A DNA stretch of 64,000 nt, from positions 496,001 through 560,000 of the forward strand of contig CP021423.1 of NCBI GenBank assembly GCA_002162075.1, written 5' to 3'. Each line of letters begins with the position of its first letter. Within the stretch, counting starts at the first letter, position 1. Of this stretch, positions 3,400 to 57,855 are shown one piece after another. The DNA comes from Armatimonadetes bacterium Uphvl-Ar1. Its GTDB lineage: Bacteria > Armatimonadota > Fimbriimonadia > Fimbriimonadales > Fimbriimonadaceae. The notes below the pieces were generated by a model. It worked only from the letters and a program-made list of their open reading frames with translations. It ran no database searches and was not told where the DNA came from. A program made the position numbers and the translations under genes.

Positions 3400-4197
3400 A
3401 TGAAATCCCTCAAAAAATCTTCTGGATTCACCTTGATTGAACTGCTGGTTGTGATTGCGATTATCGCAATTTTGGCCGCGATTTTGTTCCCTGTATTTGC
3501 CCAAGCTAAGGCTGCGGCGAAGACGATCTCCACACTTTCCAATTTGAAGCAGGTTGGAACTTCTGGTCAGATTTATCTGGCTGACTACGATGATGTTGTT
3601 CATCCGCACCGTTTCTCAAATGCGACAGCGGTTCCGGCAATTAACAATGCAGGCTACTACTTCTACCTTGAGCCGTACATGAAGAATCGGCAATTGGTAT
3701 GGGATACGGCTCGTGGCGTCGCTACTGATACATCAAGCAACAACTATGCTTGGTCTCAGGCAACTTCGATTACATTGAATCGCAATGGTTGGTCAAGTTG
3801 GGAAACATTGAACACATTTGTTCGAAGTTACCGAGTTGCTTCCGCTCAGGAAGACATTGCTGATCGCGCAGCCTACATCGTGACTTCACGAACCGATGCT
3901 CCGAGCTTGGGTTATGACTTCACCTCAGATGAAGCTGCATGTCCGGTGGTTGTCAGCCCGAATACGGTTGCAAATACTCGTCTTCAGCGCGCCTATCTTG
4001 GTTCTTTGTTCCACAAAGAAAAGATCGTAACTTCGTTTGGGGACTCCCACGCGAAGAGTGTTCCTAATAAGAGTGTGATGACCTATCATCAAACCGTTGC
4101 TGCTGGCGAGCAGTGTGCAGGATACAACGATCCTCAGTTCATTCCGCCTGCGATCAACCACAAGTTCTGGGGCACCTGGTACGACGCAACCAAGTAA
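3400..4197 (+). CDS. Type IV/II pseudopilin-like protein with H-X9-DG-type C-terminus
   Basis: A 265-residue protein starting with a class III prepilin leader (MKSLKKSSG, cleaved before F) and the hydrophobic helix [19 protein letters not shown], then [20 protein letters not shown]. Near the C-terminus, [19 protein letters not shown] matches the H-x9-DG/DxH-type ending of DUF1559-like pseudopilins. Such proteins are processed by a prepilin peptidase and built into pseudopili or held in the membrane. They are very numerous in Armatimonadota and Planctomycetota, often beside carbohydrate genes. The gene follows lacI by 28 bp and is probably co-transcribed with it. Which cargo or surface function it serves is unknown. 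Confidence 0.88.
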
Positions 4198-4206
4198 GAG
4201 TACGCA

Positions 4207-4410
4207 ATGAAAAAAGAGCTTCACCCTGGTGTAATCATTGCGGCATTGGTATTGGTTATTGGCGCGGCAATTGGCATCTTCGTGATGAGTTCTGGAGGCT
4301 CGACGGAGAAAGTGGATATCACCACACTTGATCCGAAGAGCCTTGAAGACCCGGAACCGCCGAAGCGTGGTCAGCCGGGCTACAAAGAGCGTACAACTGA
4401 CCCTGACTAG
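4207..4410 (+). CDS. Small single-pass membrane protein with acidic tail
   Basis: A 67-residue protein: a short basic start, one membrane helix at residues about 8-28 (VIIAALVLVIGAAIGIFVM), then a hydrophilic, proline- and acid-rich tail (ITTLDPKSLEDPEPPKRG). It begins 9 bp after the prepilin stop, so it is translated with it, and is followed by a terminator hairpin. I do not recognise a named family. The topology suggests a tail outside the cytoplasm, possibly an accessory subunit for the pseudopilin. Confidence 0.75.
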   Translation: MKKELHPGVIIAALVLVIGAAIGIFVMSSGGSTEKVDITTLDPKSLEDPEPPKRGQPGYKERTTDPD

Positions 4411-4438
4411 ACGACATTCCTCTGTTCGATGAGGTCAA

Positions 4439-4468
4439 GATCCCGTACGAAAGTGCGGGATCACTTTT
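4439..4468 (+). terminator. Intrinsic terminator after the prepilin operon
   Basis: GATCCCGTAC, loop GAAA, GTGCGGGATC: a 10-bp stem with one G-U pair and a tetraloop, followed by ACTTTTCCC. It ends about 10 nt before the ABC transporter ATG at 4473, so it separates the lacI-prepilin unit from the exporter operon or attenuates read-through into it. Confidence 0.75.
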
Positions 4469-4472
4469 CCCT

Positions 4473-6404
4473 ATGACTCCTTCAGGCCCAGATTCTGCAC
4501 AAAAGTCGCTTACTAACGGCTATTTGTTCAAAGAACTTTGGAAGGTTGTTTCGCCTTACAAGGGCAAATTTGTATTGAGTATTTGTTTTTTGTTACTCGC
4601 GGTTCCATTGGGTCAGTTCGCTATTTTCTTGACGCGTGATGTGACAAATCAGGCTTTAAACACAACAAGTCTAACTATTCAACAGCGATGGGATACGGTT
4701 ATTTCGATCATCGTGTTACAATTTTGTTTTTGGCTGGCCAGCACGTTACTTTCAACTTGGAGAGAGGTTCTTGAATGGTATGTTTCGATGCGGGCAACGC
4801 TTGATTTACGGCTTAGATATTATCGGCATCTTCATTCTTTGCCGATGAGTTTTCTGAGTCAGTCGGGGGCGGGGGCGCATCTGTACCGCGCCACGGCAGA
4901 CATGGTTTCGCTGTTCCGAGTGGGTAATCGAGTTGAGACTTCTACGCCGGCGGGGCAGATGCCTCCGGAGAGTAAAGAAGTTCAATCTTCTTATTATTAT
5001 TCCAATGACGTTGATCCATATGATCCGGGGGTTATGGGAATTATTACTCGGTCGATGCCTTTGTTTGTCGAGACTCTTTATGCCATGGGTTGGGGGGCTG
5101 TTTTGCTTTATCTCATTGATCCGATGTTGTCGTTGTTTCTAGTGCTTTACATTGTTCCGTTTTCGCTGGTTTCATATTTTGCGTTCAATCGGGTTCGAGT
5201 TGCAGCTTTTGCCTTTAAGGAAGGGGTTGAGAACGAATCAAAAGTACTGCGGGACAGTATTGCCGGTTTGCGAACGATGAAGGCATTTGGGCGGACAACG
5301 CTTCAGTTGAAGAAGTACTTTTTGGCAGCGGGTCAGGCACGCCGAAGTGGGGTTGGGATGTATGGGGAAATGGTGCGAACGCAAAATCTGCTTCAGCAGT
5401 TTATGCGGTGGGCTTTTACAACAGTTGTTTATGTTTATTTGGCACGGCAGATCATTTTGGGCGAGGCGACGATTGGGGATTGGGTCGCAACGGCCCTGCT
5501 TATCGAAGCGGCGCAGATGCCGTTGCAAAACTTTGTTCAGTTGACGCAACTGATCAAGATGCAGTTGGTTCCGATCCGCCGGATTTTTTCAACTTTGAGT
5601 GTCGAGCCTACATTGGTTGACCGAGCGGATGCAGTCGTTCTTGGAGAGATTTCGGGGAATCTGGAGTTTAAGGAGTTAACTTTTGGGTATCGGGAAGATG
5701 AGCCGATCATACATGAACTATCACTCCAAGTGAAGCCGGGAGAATATTTGGGAATTGTTGGGCCAAGTGGGGCGGGCAAGAGCTCGTTGGTGAATTTAGC
5801 TCTCAGACTTTATGGCCCTGATTCGGGACAGGTTCTGGTGGACGGTCATGATTTGCAGACCGTGCAATTGAAGAGTTATCTCTCCCAAGTGGCGTCGGTT
5901 CCTCAATCAACTTATCTCTATGCGGGAACGATTGCGGAGAATGTGTTCTTTGGCAACCCGGACGCAACGGAAGAGGATTTGCAGAGGGTATTGGATGAGT
6001 CGGGGGCTTCGGCGTTTTTGAAGCATCATGCGGATGGAGTTGATACGATGATTTCAGAATCCGCTCCCATTTCTGGCGGGGAGCGTCAGCGGATTGGCAT
6101 TGCGCGGGCGTTGATTCGCGATCCGAAGATTCTGTTTTTGGATGAAGCGACGGCGAGTCTTGATCCGGCGACGGAGGATGCGATTTTGGAAACGATTCAG
6201 CGAATCCGGGGCGGGCGAACAATTTTGACAATTGCACATCGGCTCAAGGCCGTGACACAGTGCGATCGAATTATTGTTTTGGACGAGGGGAGAATTGTCC
6301 AAGAGGGGACGCACGATCAGCTCTTGGCGGTTGATGGACTTTACAGGAAATTGTGGGAGCAGCAGTGGGAGATCGGGAAAGTGAGGGGTGGGGTTCATGA
6401 CTGA
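4473..6404 (+). CDS. ABC exporter half-transporter 1 (permease-ATPase)
   Basis: A 643-residue fused membrane and ATPase protein of the MsbA/type IV exporter kind. The transmembrane domain covers residues about 30-345. The nucleotide-binding domain has Walker A GPSGAGKSS (about 429), signature ISGGERQRIG (about 532), Walker B ILFLDEATASLD (about 552) and the H-loop IAHRL (about 587), all intact. An unusual hydrophilic loop of about 35 residues (RVETSTPAGQMPPESKEV, then SSYYYSNDVDPYDPG) is inserted inside the transmembrane domain. Its stop overlaps the next half-transporter's ATG (ATGA), so the pair is probably a heterodimer. Export rather than import is inferred from the fused architecture and the HlyD-like partner. 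Confidence 0.92.
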   Translation: MTPSGPDSAQKSLTNGYLFKELWKVVSPYKGKFVLSICFLLLAVPLGQFAIFLTRDVTNQALNTTSLTIQQRWDTVISIIVLQFCFWLASTLLSTWREVLEWYVSMRATLDLRLRYYRHLHSLPMSFLSQSGAGAHLYRATADMVSLFRVGNRVETSTPAGQMPPESKEVQSSYYYSNDVDPYDPGVMGIITRSMPLFVETLYAMGWGAVLLYLIDPMLSLFLVLYIVPFSLVSYFAFNRVRVAAFAFKEGVENESKVLRDSIAGLRTMKAFGRTTLQLKKYFLAAGQARRSGVGMYGEMVRTQNLLQQFMRWAFTTVVYVYLARQIILGEATIGDWVATALLIEAAQMPLQNFVQLTQLIKMQLVPIRRIFSTLSVEPTLVDRADAVVLGEISGNLEFKELTFGYREDEPIIHELSLQVKPGEYLGIVGPSGAGKSSLVNLALRLYGPDSGQVLVDGHDLQTVQLKSYLSQVASVPQSTYLYAGTIAENVFFGNPDATEEDLQRVLDESGASAFLKHHADGVDTMISESAPISGGERQRIGIARALIRDPKILFLDEATASLDPATEDAILETIQRIRGGRTILTIAHRLKAVTQCDRIIVLDEGRIVQEGTHDQLLAVDGLYRKLWEQQWEIGKVRGGVHD

Positions 6405-54977: not shown

Positions 54978-55008
54978 CATGCCTCTGCTCTGTTAGAGTA
55001 GGGGCATG
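54978..55008 (+). promoter_or_regulatory. Hairpin ending on the start codon of the next gene
   Basis: CATGCCTCTGCTCT (54978-54991), loop GTT, AGAGTAGGGGCATG (54995-55008): a 14-bp stem with two G-U pairs. The second arm contains AGGGG and the ATG at 55006, and TAGAGT (54994-54999) inside it is a possible -10 box. It may be the icd terminator overlapping the next promoter. Confidence 0.55.
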
Positions 55009-56853
55009 ATGATTTGGGCGGTTGCGGCGTCGGCGGTTTCTAGTGGTTGGATCGATAATGACTTTCGGGATGTGCCGGTCAGTGTCTACACGATCGACAT
55101 GAAGACGGTTTCGGAATCGCGGGTGATTGACGGCATGATGTTGACCGTACCTGTTCAATATCGGGCAACGTTCTCTTCTGATTTTGATGAGTTTGAAGAT
55201 GTTCAGGATCGGCCATATCGTACGCTTCGGTTACGCCCTGATCAGAAATCGGAATCGCAGGATTCAATTGAATTAAGGGCGGCTCTGGAGCGAGTGGATG
55301 TTGTTCAGAGTGAAGTGAATACTCTCTTTTCGTCGCTCAAGGAAATTGGAGGGGGTTCGGACTTTGGCTATCAGGTCAACACGGCGATTGATAAGTGCCT
55401 CGATTCTGCACGATTGGAGACTGGTTCATTTGAGCCAGTGATGATTAATACCAAAGCAGATTTGCAGCCGGGCGGTTGGACGGTTCGGACTTACGGGCAT
55501 GAATTGGTTGACTACTCGATGGACTATTCGATTGAAGCAAAGTTTGAGTACGGCGGGAAGGCTTATTCTGAAGTTGAGCTGAGTGGATCGGTAAGTTTGG
55601 GCTCGGCGTTTGCGCCTCGGTTTAGCGCTCTTGATCAGTATTATGTGCCGGACGGGAGTCCCGAGAAGAAGCTTCAGGAAGCGTTTGGCGGGGGGATTTT
55701 CCGAAAGGACGGTCAGGACAGCACGATCCAGGTTCAGTTACCGGAGTACGAGTATCCATCCGTTTTTGAGGAACGGACGGTTGGAAACTATATTGCCGAT
55801 TTGACTAAAGCGAATGGTTCGGCCCTATTTTCCAATTTGCAGACTCAGGGATACACGATTCCAGAATTGTCCCGGACACTTGACCGACTTGCTCCGCAGG
55901 GAACGGATATGAACCGACTTAATTTTGGGGATTGGGAGGAGAGTGATTGCGAAGCGGATTTGGACTTTCCACCGGGAACCGTATGGGTGCCATCCAACAA
56001 GGGTTACCAGTCGATGATGACGGGGGTGCGATTTGACTATATGTCACCGGGTTTTGATCTCGTTGCTAGCGTGACTGGGGAGGGTAGCCAGGCACCTTCC
56101 ATGCGTGTTCTTTGCATGAATATGAACAAGAAGGAGCCAGCGGCGGGCATCAAGTATTTTCCTTATGTTCCGAAAGATCCGGTGATTCCGATGCTGGCGA
56201 AACGGATGGACGAATCAAATTTCCGGGGGCCATGGGATCAGGCGCGGCTTTGGATTTACACGGACAAGGCGTCACTCGATGACCTTAATAAGCGATTGGT
56301 TCAGCAACTGCCGATTTCGAGTTATGTGATGGCATTAGCGGATGTTGATTGGGTGGGTGGTTTAGGCGAGAAGATGGTTAAAGACGCAAAGATTGTTCGA
56401 CCGGAATTTTTGGCGGGCAATGCGGCTCCGGCTTATGCGACGGGCTTTTTGTTGGAGGCGCTCAATCGGTTTCATGGGAAGAAAGCTGGGGAATGGCTCA
56501 AGAAAAATTCTGCAAGTCTTGTGAAGATTGCGGGGCCTGAGATAGATGACTTTGACCGGGCTCATTTGAAGCTGGTTTTTGGGAGGATGTTGACGTTCGA
56601 TGAAAGCGAAGATCGCCTGGCAGCTTTGCAGATTTTGTCGGCGCATCAGAAAGAGTTTGCGTTTTTGAAGGGTGGGCTCGGTTCAGGACGTCAATCGCTC
56701 TATTCGGCAAATCGGGCGGAAATTGAGGCCGCTCTGGGACTTGTTGAATCAGGAATGTTTGAGGTAGCTCAAGACGCGATGGATTATCTTTCGACAGAGG
56801 GGCCAAGTGATGCGATCAAATCTCGGGCAAAAGCGTTGTTGAAAGTCAATTAG
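55006..56853 (+). CDS. Large protein of unknown function, possibly exported
   Basis: 615 residues. The start MMIWAVAASAVSSGWID is only weakly signal-like. The body is mixed alpha/beta with long acidic stretches (FSSDFDEFEDVQDRPYRTLR), a beta-rich middle and a helical end (LLEALNRFHGKKAGEWLKKN ... FEVAQDAMDYLSTEGPSDAI) that resembles HEAT or TPR-like repeats. I recognise no family or catalytic motif. It sits after icd, convergent with the winged-helix gene, whose stop it overlaps by four bases. TAGAGT six bases upstream predicts a leaderless mRNA. Confidence 0.6.
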   Translation: MMIWAVAASAVSSGWIDNDFRDVPVSVYTIDMKTVSESRVIDGMMLTVPVQYRATFSSDFDEFEDVQDRPYRTLRLRPDQKSESQDSIELRAALERVDVVQSEVNTLFSSLKEIGGGSDFGYQVNTAIDKCLDSARLETGSFEPVMINTKADLQPGGWTVRTYGHELVDYSMDYSIEAKFEYGGKAYSEVELSGSVSLGSAFAPRFSALDQYYVPDGSPEKKLQEAFGGGIFRKDGQDSTIQVQLPEYEYPSVFEERTVGNYIADLTKANGSALFSNLQTQGYTIPELSRTLDRLAPQGTDMNRLNFGDWEESDCEADLDFPPGTVWVPSNKGYQSMMTGVRFDYMSPGFDLVASVTGEGSQAPSMRVLCMNMNKKEPAAGIKYFPYVPKDPVIPMLAKRMDESNFRGPWDQARLWIYTDKASLDDLNKRLVQQLPISSYVMALADVDWVGGLGEKMVKDAKIVRPEFLAGNAAPAYATGFLLEALNRFHGKKAGEWLKKNSASLVKIAGPEIDDFDRAHLKLVFGRMLTFDESEDRLAALQILSAHQKEFAFLKGGLGSGRQSLYSANRAEIEAALGLVESGMFEVAQDAMDYLSTEGPSDAIKSRAKALLKVN

Positions 56854-57551
56854 GCGGCGAGGACATCGTTGACGTTTTTGTTCCAGACCGGGCGAAAGTG
56901 TTCCATCAGAGTGGGAAATAGCCCTGAGCAGAGACTGATGCGGAAGTCGGTGTATTTGAGTCCGCCGGGGTCTTTGAGGATATAGATTTGGACATGGCGA
57001 CCACGTTGGAGTGTGGCGCGGAGGTAGGTGTTGTATCTTTGAAGATGGGCGGGCGGTGAGTTTCCGCTGATTGTGGCGAGGGTTTGCCCGAGCGACCGAG
57101 GGGAATTCTGGATGTAGACGACCGCTCCGTCGATGGTCAACACCAGCAGAATGTCGTTGATGTCATTGCTTTCTCCGACGAAGAATGTTGGGGTGTTATC
57201 GGTGAGGGTGAAATCTCCGACCCATTTGAAGCCGAGTTTAAGAAGTTCTTTGACATGTTCTTGGCCTTTGGGGATGTCAGGTAGTTCGTCATCGGTCGGA
57301 AGGGTTATGGCGAGAGTCGGAGAAACATCGACGGGAACGAGCTGGGATTCGTCCGTGATGACGTAGTTGCCGTGGGGTTTGCCGACGCGTTTGATGCGCT
57401 TGAGAACGCCTTCTGTTTCGAGTTGTCGGCAGATAAGACTGACGGCTTGGGTGGAAGGGACATATTGACGAAGAGCGTACGCAAGCTCTTCATCGTTGAG
57501 CCCGTTGTTTTCCTTGAGATAGTCGTGGACCATGTTGCGGAGTGAATTCAT
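56850..57551 (-). CDS. Winged-helix protein with a probably inactive GIY-YIG-like domain
   Basis: 233 residues. Residues about 1-65 read like a winged helix (NNGLNDEELAYALRQYVPST ... ICRQLETEGVLKRIKRVGKP). Residues about 125-230 follow the course of GIY-YIG nucleases: ILLVLTIDGAVVYIQNSPRS, then a helix (LQRYNTYLRATLQRGRHVQI, matching 'N-x-x-I/L ... G-x-x-V-x-I'), and a final LFPTLMEHFRPVWN as in the family's ending 'P-x-W-N'. The catalytic Y-I-G is Y-I-Q here, the helix Arg after 'SL' is missing and the metal Glu is not seen. Tentative. TAGCGT six bases before the ATG predicts a leaderless mRNA. Confidence 0.5.
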   Translation of the reverse strand: MNSLRNMVHDYLKENNGLNDEELAYALRQYVPSTQAVSLICRQLETEGVLKRIKRVGKPHGNYVITDESQLVPVDVSPTLAITLPTDDELPDIPKGQEHVKELLKLGFKWVGDFTLTDNTPTFFVGESNDINDILLVLTIDGAVVYIQNSPRSLGQTLATISGNSPPAHLQRYNTYLRATLQRGRHVQIYILKDPGGLKYTDFRISLCSGLFPTLMEHFRPVWNKNVNDVLAA

Positions 57552-57603
57552 GGTTTAACGCTATGATTTTCGGCTTTTGTTAAGCTTTTCTATAATAGAG
57601 GGG

Positions 57604-57855
57604 ATGGTCGAGCGGTTTGAAGTGGTTTCGGTTTCGGTGGAGGAGGTCTTGGGGAGAGCGGAAGAGTTGGGTCTGGTGGTGCGAGAGATGGGGGTGCTCC
57701 AGGGTAAGGGGGCCCGGCATTGGCATCTGACACGAGCGGGGGAGAGAGGGGTTTTAGAGTTGAGTGAGTTAGCGGGGGAGGTTTGGTTGGAGGTTAGGAG
57801 TAATCGGCGGGGGGACTGGATTTTAGGGGCGGTTGCGACTTTGACGAAATTCTAG
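57604..57855 (+). CDS. Small hypothetical protein
   Basis: 83 residues from ATG 57604 (MVERFEVVSVSVEEVLGRAE), ending AVATLTKF. No family recognised; a helix-rich first half followed by a small beta meander (RHWHLTRAGERGVLELS ... VWLEVRSNRRGDWILGAV). TATAAT lies seven bases before the ATG, giving a leaderless promoter, and the gene is divergent from the winged-helix gene. Because this promoter is clear, the gene is likely real. Confidence 0.55.
   Translation: MVERFEVVSVSVEEVLGRAEELGLVVREMGVLQGKGARHWHLTRAGERGVLELSELAGEVWLEVRSNRRGDWILGAVATLTKF

Follow-up and report, generated by a model that had tools for sequence, protein, structure and literature searches.

In a 64,000-nucleotide stretch of DNA from an uncultured Fimbriimonadaceae bacterium (the window), a minus-strand gene running from an ATG at 57551 to 56850 encodes a 233-aa protein that appears to join a winged helix to a GIY-YIG nuclease domain stripped of most of its active site. 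We favor, with a probability of roughly 60%, the reading that a former winged-helix nuclease has become a non-cutting protein that would bind DNA and probably oligomerize. An intact-looking version and several dead versions of the gene occupy one chromosomal locus in a single genus, so that the step from enzyme to non-enzyme is directly testable.

A conserved gene under purifying selection

The ORF is a real gene and not a chance reading frame, since an open copy is found in all eight genomes of the genus (G000 to G007) and the copies differ by many more synonymous than nonsynonymous changes. The copy in G007 is cut by a contig end before the position of the helix Arg, which makes its later positions unreadable. 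The relatives carrying orthologs are labelled Fimbriimonadaceae, and icd and/or proS adjoin the gene in all eight genomes (in G002, proS lies on a separate contig). Between G000 and G006, the whole gene differs by 73 synonymous versus 3 nonsynonymous codon changes, and the resulting dN/dS of 0.008 is lower than that of any other gene among the seven examined from the region, icd (0.020) and proS (0.048) included. By part, the ratio is 0 for the winged helix and 0.004 for the GIY-YIG part in this pair, and 0.020 for the GIY-YIG part between G003 and G005; all these values are for close pairs, as synonymous sites are near saturation over longer distances and most ratios become incalculable. The dead domain is maintained under strong purifying selection. 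A gene that lost catalysis because it had become superfluous and is now decaying would fit the drift of active-site positions across the genus and the faster evolution of the GIY-YIG part relative to the winged helix, but the low dN/dS, the presence of the gene throughout the genus, and the absence of stops and frameshifts from every copy make such a pseudogene hardly credible.

Table 1. Coordinates in the window of the gene, its domains, its key residues, and an upstream element.
Feature	Position	Strand	Basis or remark
Gene encoding a probable winged helix and a seemingly catalytically dead EndoII-type GIY-YIG domain, 233 aa	56850..57551	-	Orthologs in 8/8 genomes of the genus
Probable winged-helix-like DNA-binding domain, residues 1-68	57348..57551	-	HTH_24/MarR_2 and TFE matches of relatives, model helices
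Variable linker, residues 69-95	57267..57347	-	Low model confidence
EndoII-type GIY-YIG fold (predicted), residues 96-228	56868..57266	-	Profiles and predicted fold
L136, place of the first-motif catalytic Tyr	57144..57146	-	Still Tyr in G001 and G002 and in the intact relatives
Q148, place of the YIG Gly	57108..57110	-	G in G001/G002; M, A, V, or Q elsewhere in the genus
T157, place of the catalytic helix Arg	57081..57083	-	Arg in G001; T, C, or S elsewhere
R172, basic position	57036..57038	-	R/K in all readable genus members
F212, place of the metal-binding Glu (E118 in T4 EndoII)	56916..56918	-	Glu in G001; F/Y elsewhere
N224, final-motif Asn	56880..56882	-	Present in all readable copies
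Short stretch ahead of the start codon, CCGAAAAT on the gene strand	57566..57573	-	Conserved in 5 genomes, recognizable in others

The GIY-YIG domain and its active site

Searched on its own, the window protein has no match in Pfam or NCBIfam, nothing convincing in the PDB, and nothing usable in PADLOC, and the GIY-YIG domain is detectable through relatives only and not by single-sequence search. A profile that includes intact relatives matches T4 endonuclease II (EndoII or DenA; 2wsh) with E=4e-7, followed by Hpy188I as second best. A profile of dead sequences only does not match EndoII in the PDB, so intermediates are needed to make the connection. To avoid circularity we kept two disjoint sets separate, one of five dead sequences from the genus (A9) and the other of eight intact sequences from phages, plasmids, and prophage-like elements (A10). 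Compared profile to profile, they match with 98.9% probability (E=2e-17, 144 columns), and A10, which holds no sequence from the genus, retrieves the window gene from its own genome with E=2e-13. An AlphaFold model built from 10 sequences is of moderate confidence overall (mean pLDDT 65.7), with ten-residue blocks across residues 101 to 220 averaging 70 to 89, and its predicted fold matches T4 EndoII with Z 15.1 (2.1 Å over 125 residues; Foldseek E=2e-6), Hpy188I with Z ~10, and the GIY-YIG domain of UvrC with Z 7 to 8.5. Judged by predicted fold and profile relationship, together with N224 as the Asn of the final motif, residues 96 to 228 are a GIY-YIG domain of the T4 EndoII type. An earlier note on this DNA, made from the letters and their translations, had described a C-terminal half following the GIY-YIG course to a final P-V-W-N; the protein indeed runs to P221-V-W-N224, and structure prediction, which that note had proposed as a check, returns a GIY-YIG fold.

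The 12 invariant columns among eight diverse intact relatives (Y, A, Y, G, R, Y, V, E, I, P, W, and N) cover the six active-site positions of the superfamily, i.e., first Tyr, second Tyr, Gly, Arg, Glu, and Asn. At these positions the window protein has L136, Y146, Q148, T157, F212, and N224, keeping only Tyr146 and Asn224. The earlier note had rightly pointed to a Y-I-Q core in place of Y-I-G (Y146-I147-Q148), to the missing helix Arg (T157), and to the absence of a metal-binding Glu, whose position (F212) lies 12 residues before the final Asn; it missed that the catalytic Tyr of the first motif is lost as well (L136). What an active GIY-YIG nuclease would need is thus lacking at the first-motif Tyr and YIG Gly, the helix Arg, and the metal Glu, and we infer that the domain is catalytically dead and would show no activity in vitro. 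T4 EndoII shares the GIY-YIG subtype, the fold, and the final P-x-W-N end with the window protein, but it is an enzymatically active nuclease and has no winged helix, whereas the window protein lacks the Tyr of the first motif, the Gly, the Arg, and the Glu. R.Hpy188I (3oqg, 3or3), which has the GIY-YIG fold in common with the window protein, is an active restriction enzyme in which Lys replaces the second Tyr and Gln replaces the Asn (PMC2630997); the window protein keeps exactly these two positions and has lost the others.

Across the genus, the six positions read Y, Y, G, R, E, N in G001 (all kept); Y, C, G, T, Y, N in G002 (some kept); V, C, M, C, F, N in G003 and G005; I, Y, A, S, F, N in G004; and L, Y, Q, T, F, N in G000 and G006, while G007 has I, L, V at the first three before its contig ends. 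None of the five fully readable copies other than G001 and G002 retains the first Tyr, the Gly, the Arg, or the Glu. Both Tyr positions and the Gly drift, Arg is replaced by a small residue (T, S, or C) and Glu by an aromatic one (F or Y), and the basic position R172 is Lys in G002. Catalysis by relocated residues, as proposed for the Arg in part of the Hpy188I family (PMC2630997), could draw on R152 and E217, which are invariant in the genus where readable. However, both are already present in intact G001 and hence are not replacement catalytic residues; the four catalytic residues are lost together with free drift at the first two positions, and the Phe or Tyr at the Glu position has an adjacent Pro or Arg and no new acid, so that a nuclease still active in this way seems very improbable. 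The dead clade thus has no conserved alternative catalytic residues, which, together with the predicted GIY-YIG fold, lends good support to the earlier suggestion of a nuclease scaffold turned non-catalytic next to a winged helix. In the literature searched, with subscription journals mostly outside its scope, we found no description of a dead GIY-YIG domain kept as a scaffold.

The intact-looking ortholog of G001 sits at the same icd...proS locus, and this synteny makes the structural claim stronger than originally stated. The intact state also occurs in distant relatives (G026, G050, and a Chloroflexota plasmid protein). A proS tree that includes three outgroups places G001 deepest within the genus and unites the other seven genomes at 96/93; this tree is built on one marker gene, supports the genus node modestly (85/87), and leaves several inner forks unsettled. 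The simplest reading of the proS tree is that the catalytic residues were lost within the genus, after G001 had split off; any finer order of the losses is an inference.

Across 291 surveyed genomes from the phylum, other EndoII-type domains keep the core wherever readable, except for one separate copy in G119 (L019:1384-1914). This copy is without a winged helix, the helix Arg, and the metal Glu (Leu instead), adjoins purine-synthesis-like genes, and apparently represents an independent loss. No close relative of the dead form was found in the viral and phage collections; one viral match (L026) was considered and rejected as a different protein with a short stretch in common.

The probable winged helix and related nucleases

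Residues 1 to 68 are the best conserved part of the protein, with 59% to 79% identity between the window copy and those of G004, G003, G002, and G001 compared to 38% to 71% for the GIY-YIG part. The N-terminal winged helix named in the earlier note is more weakly supported than the GIY-YIG domain: a PHROG transcriptional-regulator profile matches with E=0.0037, relatives of this region give sub-threshold matches to HTH_24 and MarR_2, and a winged-helix profile matches transcription factor E (E=0.003) and, less strongly, MarR proteins. The low-confidence model places helices at residues 4-14, 20-30, 34-43, and 47-55 (pLDDT about 77-79 across residues 1-50); wing strands are not predicted in the models, for which four close sequences underlie this part, and a model of the winged helix alone gives weak structure matches (Z 5.6 and less). 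Taken together, these data indicate that residues 1 to 68 very probably form a winged helix.

Four further genomes of the phylum (loci L020, L021, L077, and L078) encode this module fused to PD-(D/E)XK-like domains, and so does a Nocardioides plasmid, in a protein annotated as "MarR family" (WP_011751475; L086:4001-4699), whose gene lies near an McrC gene. The winged helix of L021 shares 49% identity over 59 residues with that of the Chloroflexota winged-helix GIY-YIG protein. These proteins have the winged-helix module in common with the window protein but carry another nuclease-like fold with an apparently intact D..ExK motif, and their existence makes the module look like a targeting device of nucleases. 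As it is common to different nuclease folds, it may help to predict what such nucleases recognize. The window protein also has the domain order, winged helix and then GIY-YIG, of Ahi29725I and Apa233I, wH-GIY-YIG 6mA-dependent endonucleases that cut Dam-methylated DNA (PMC11037411). This likeness is one of domain order alone, with a weakly supported winged helix, and we do not class the window protein with these type IV restriction endonucleases because its active site is not intact. By analogy, N6-methyladenine or methylation is one possible class of targets for the winged helix; none of the solved 6mA readers was matched by the winged-helix sequence, which bears neither way on 6mA recognition.

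Proposed function and chromosomal context

In our model, the ancestor at the icd-proS locus would have been a nuclease composed of a winged helix and an EndoII-type GIY-YIG domain. After the G001 lineage had split off, the GIY-YIG domain would have lost the Tyr that activates the nucleophile, the Gly of the YIG motif, the Arg that binds phosphate, and the metal Glu, with the fold, the final Asn, the basic residue of the second helix, and the winged helix retained under strong purifying selection. The winged helix may still locate the DNA sites where the nuclease formerly acted, with the dead domain as a probable module for oligomerization and non-specific gripping of DNA. We propose oligomerization because T4 EndoII, according to structural work, is reportedly tetrameric and binds DNA as a tetramer. 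Both domains carry almost no net charge, and this composition predicts no strongly basic surface, which counts against DNA binding.

Binding of RNA rather than DNA appears quite unlikely; scaffolds of this kind can switch targets and the sequence does not preclude RNA as the target, but the closest characterized relatives, EndoII and Hpy188I, act on DNA and the winged helix resembles DNA-binding or transcription domains of the MarR/HTH_24 and TFE types. Another alternative, which we consider unlikely, is a regulatory subunit in a hetero-oligomer with an active nuclease or a decoy that shields sites against a nuclease of its own kind from a phage or mobile element. Relatives of T4 EndoII are widespread among phages (735 records), other nucleases employ this winged helix as well, and mixed oligomers are conceivable, since EndoII is reportedly tetrameric. 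However, the intact-only profile gave a single match in the window genome, which thus has no second EndoII-type domain, and this disfavors a partnership with an active subunit from the same genome; the three PF01541 matches found there are other GIY-YIG genes. No defense genes were recognized alongside the gene, whose neighbors are housekeeping genes, and we rejected a defense-island context. Separately, two GIY-YIG matches of equal score lie near both ends of one contig (G000:C1:262-492 and G000:C1:2972354-2972584), which might reflect overlapping ends left untrimmed in a circular assembly.

Returning to the non-cutting DNA-binding protein, we give even odds to the more specific proposal that a restriction- or repair-like winged-helix nuclease has turned into a conserved chromosomal DNA-binding regulator within one genus, with intact, half-broken, and dead stages at one locus. 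A role as a regulator that would read DNA or RNA, as suggested in the earlier note, is plausible. To call it a new kind of regulator, as in the earlier note, is too strong, as dead DNA-processing enzymes that serve as DNA-targeting proteins are known: TnsF of Tn6022 has lost catalysis, is reused for DNA targeting, and has a known active relative (PMC10293859). Unlike the window protein, TnsF is a tyrosine recombinase and belongs to a mobile element.

Upstream of the gene, the conserved stretch CCGAAAAT is a possible promoter or operator element; no clear conserved palindromic operator was seen there. A divergent small ORF (57604-57855, plus strand) encodes 83 aa with a core RHWH...LEL...NR-G-W and no Pfam match. 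Its counterpart lies beside the gene in G000, G006, G003, G005, and G007 and is missing there in G004, G001, and G002, and it was therefore rejected as an obligatory partner. On the other side, a 615-aa protein without Pfam match is encoded convergently (55006-56853, plus strand) with a 4-base overlap at the end of the gene, and this neighbor is present as a tandem duplicate in G004 (L029:1538-3361 and 3515-5344).
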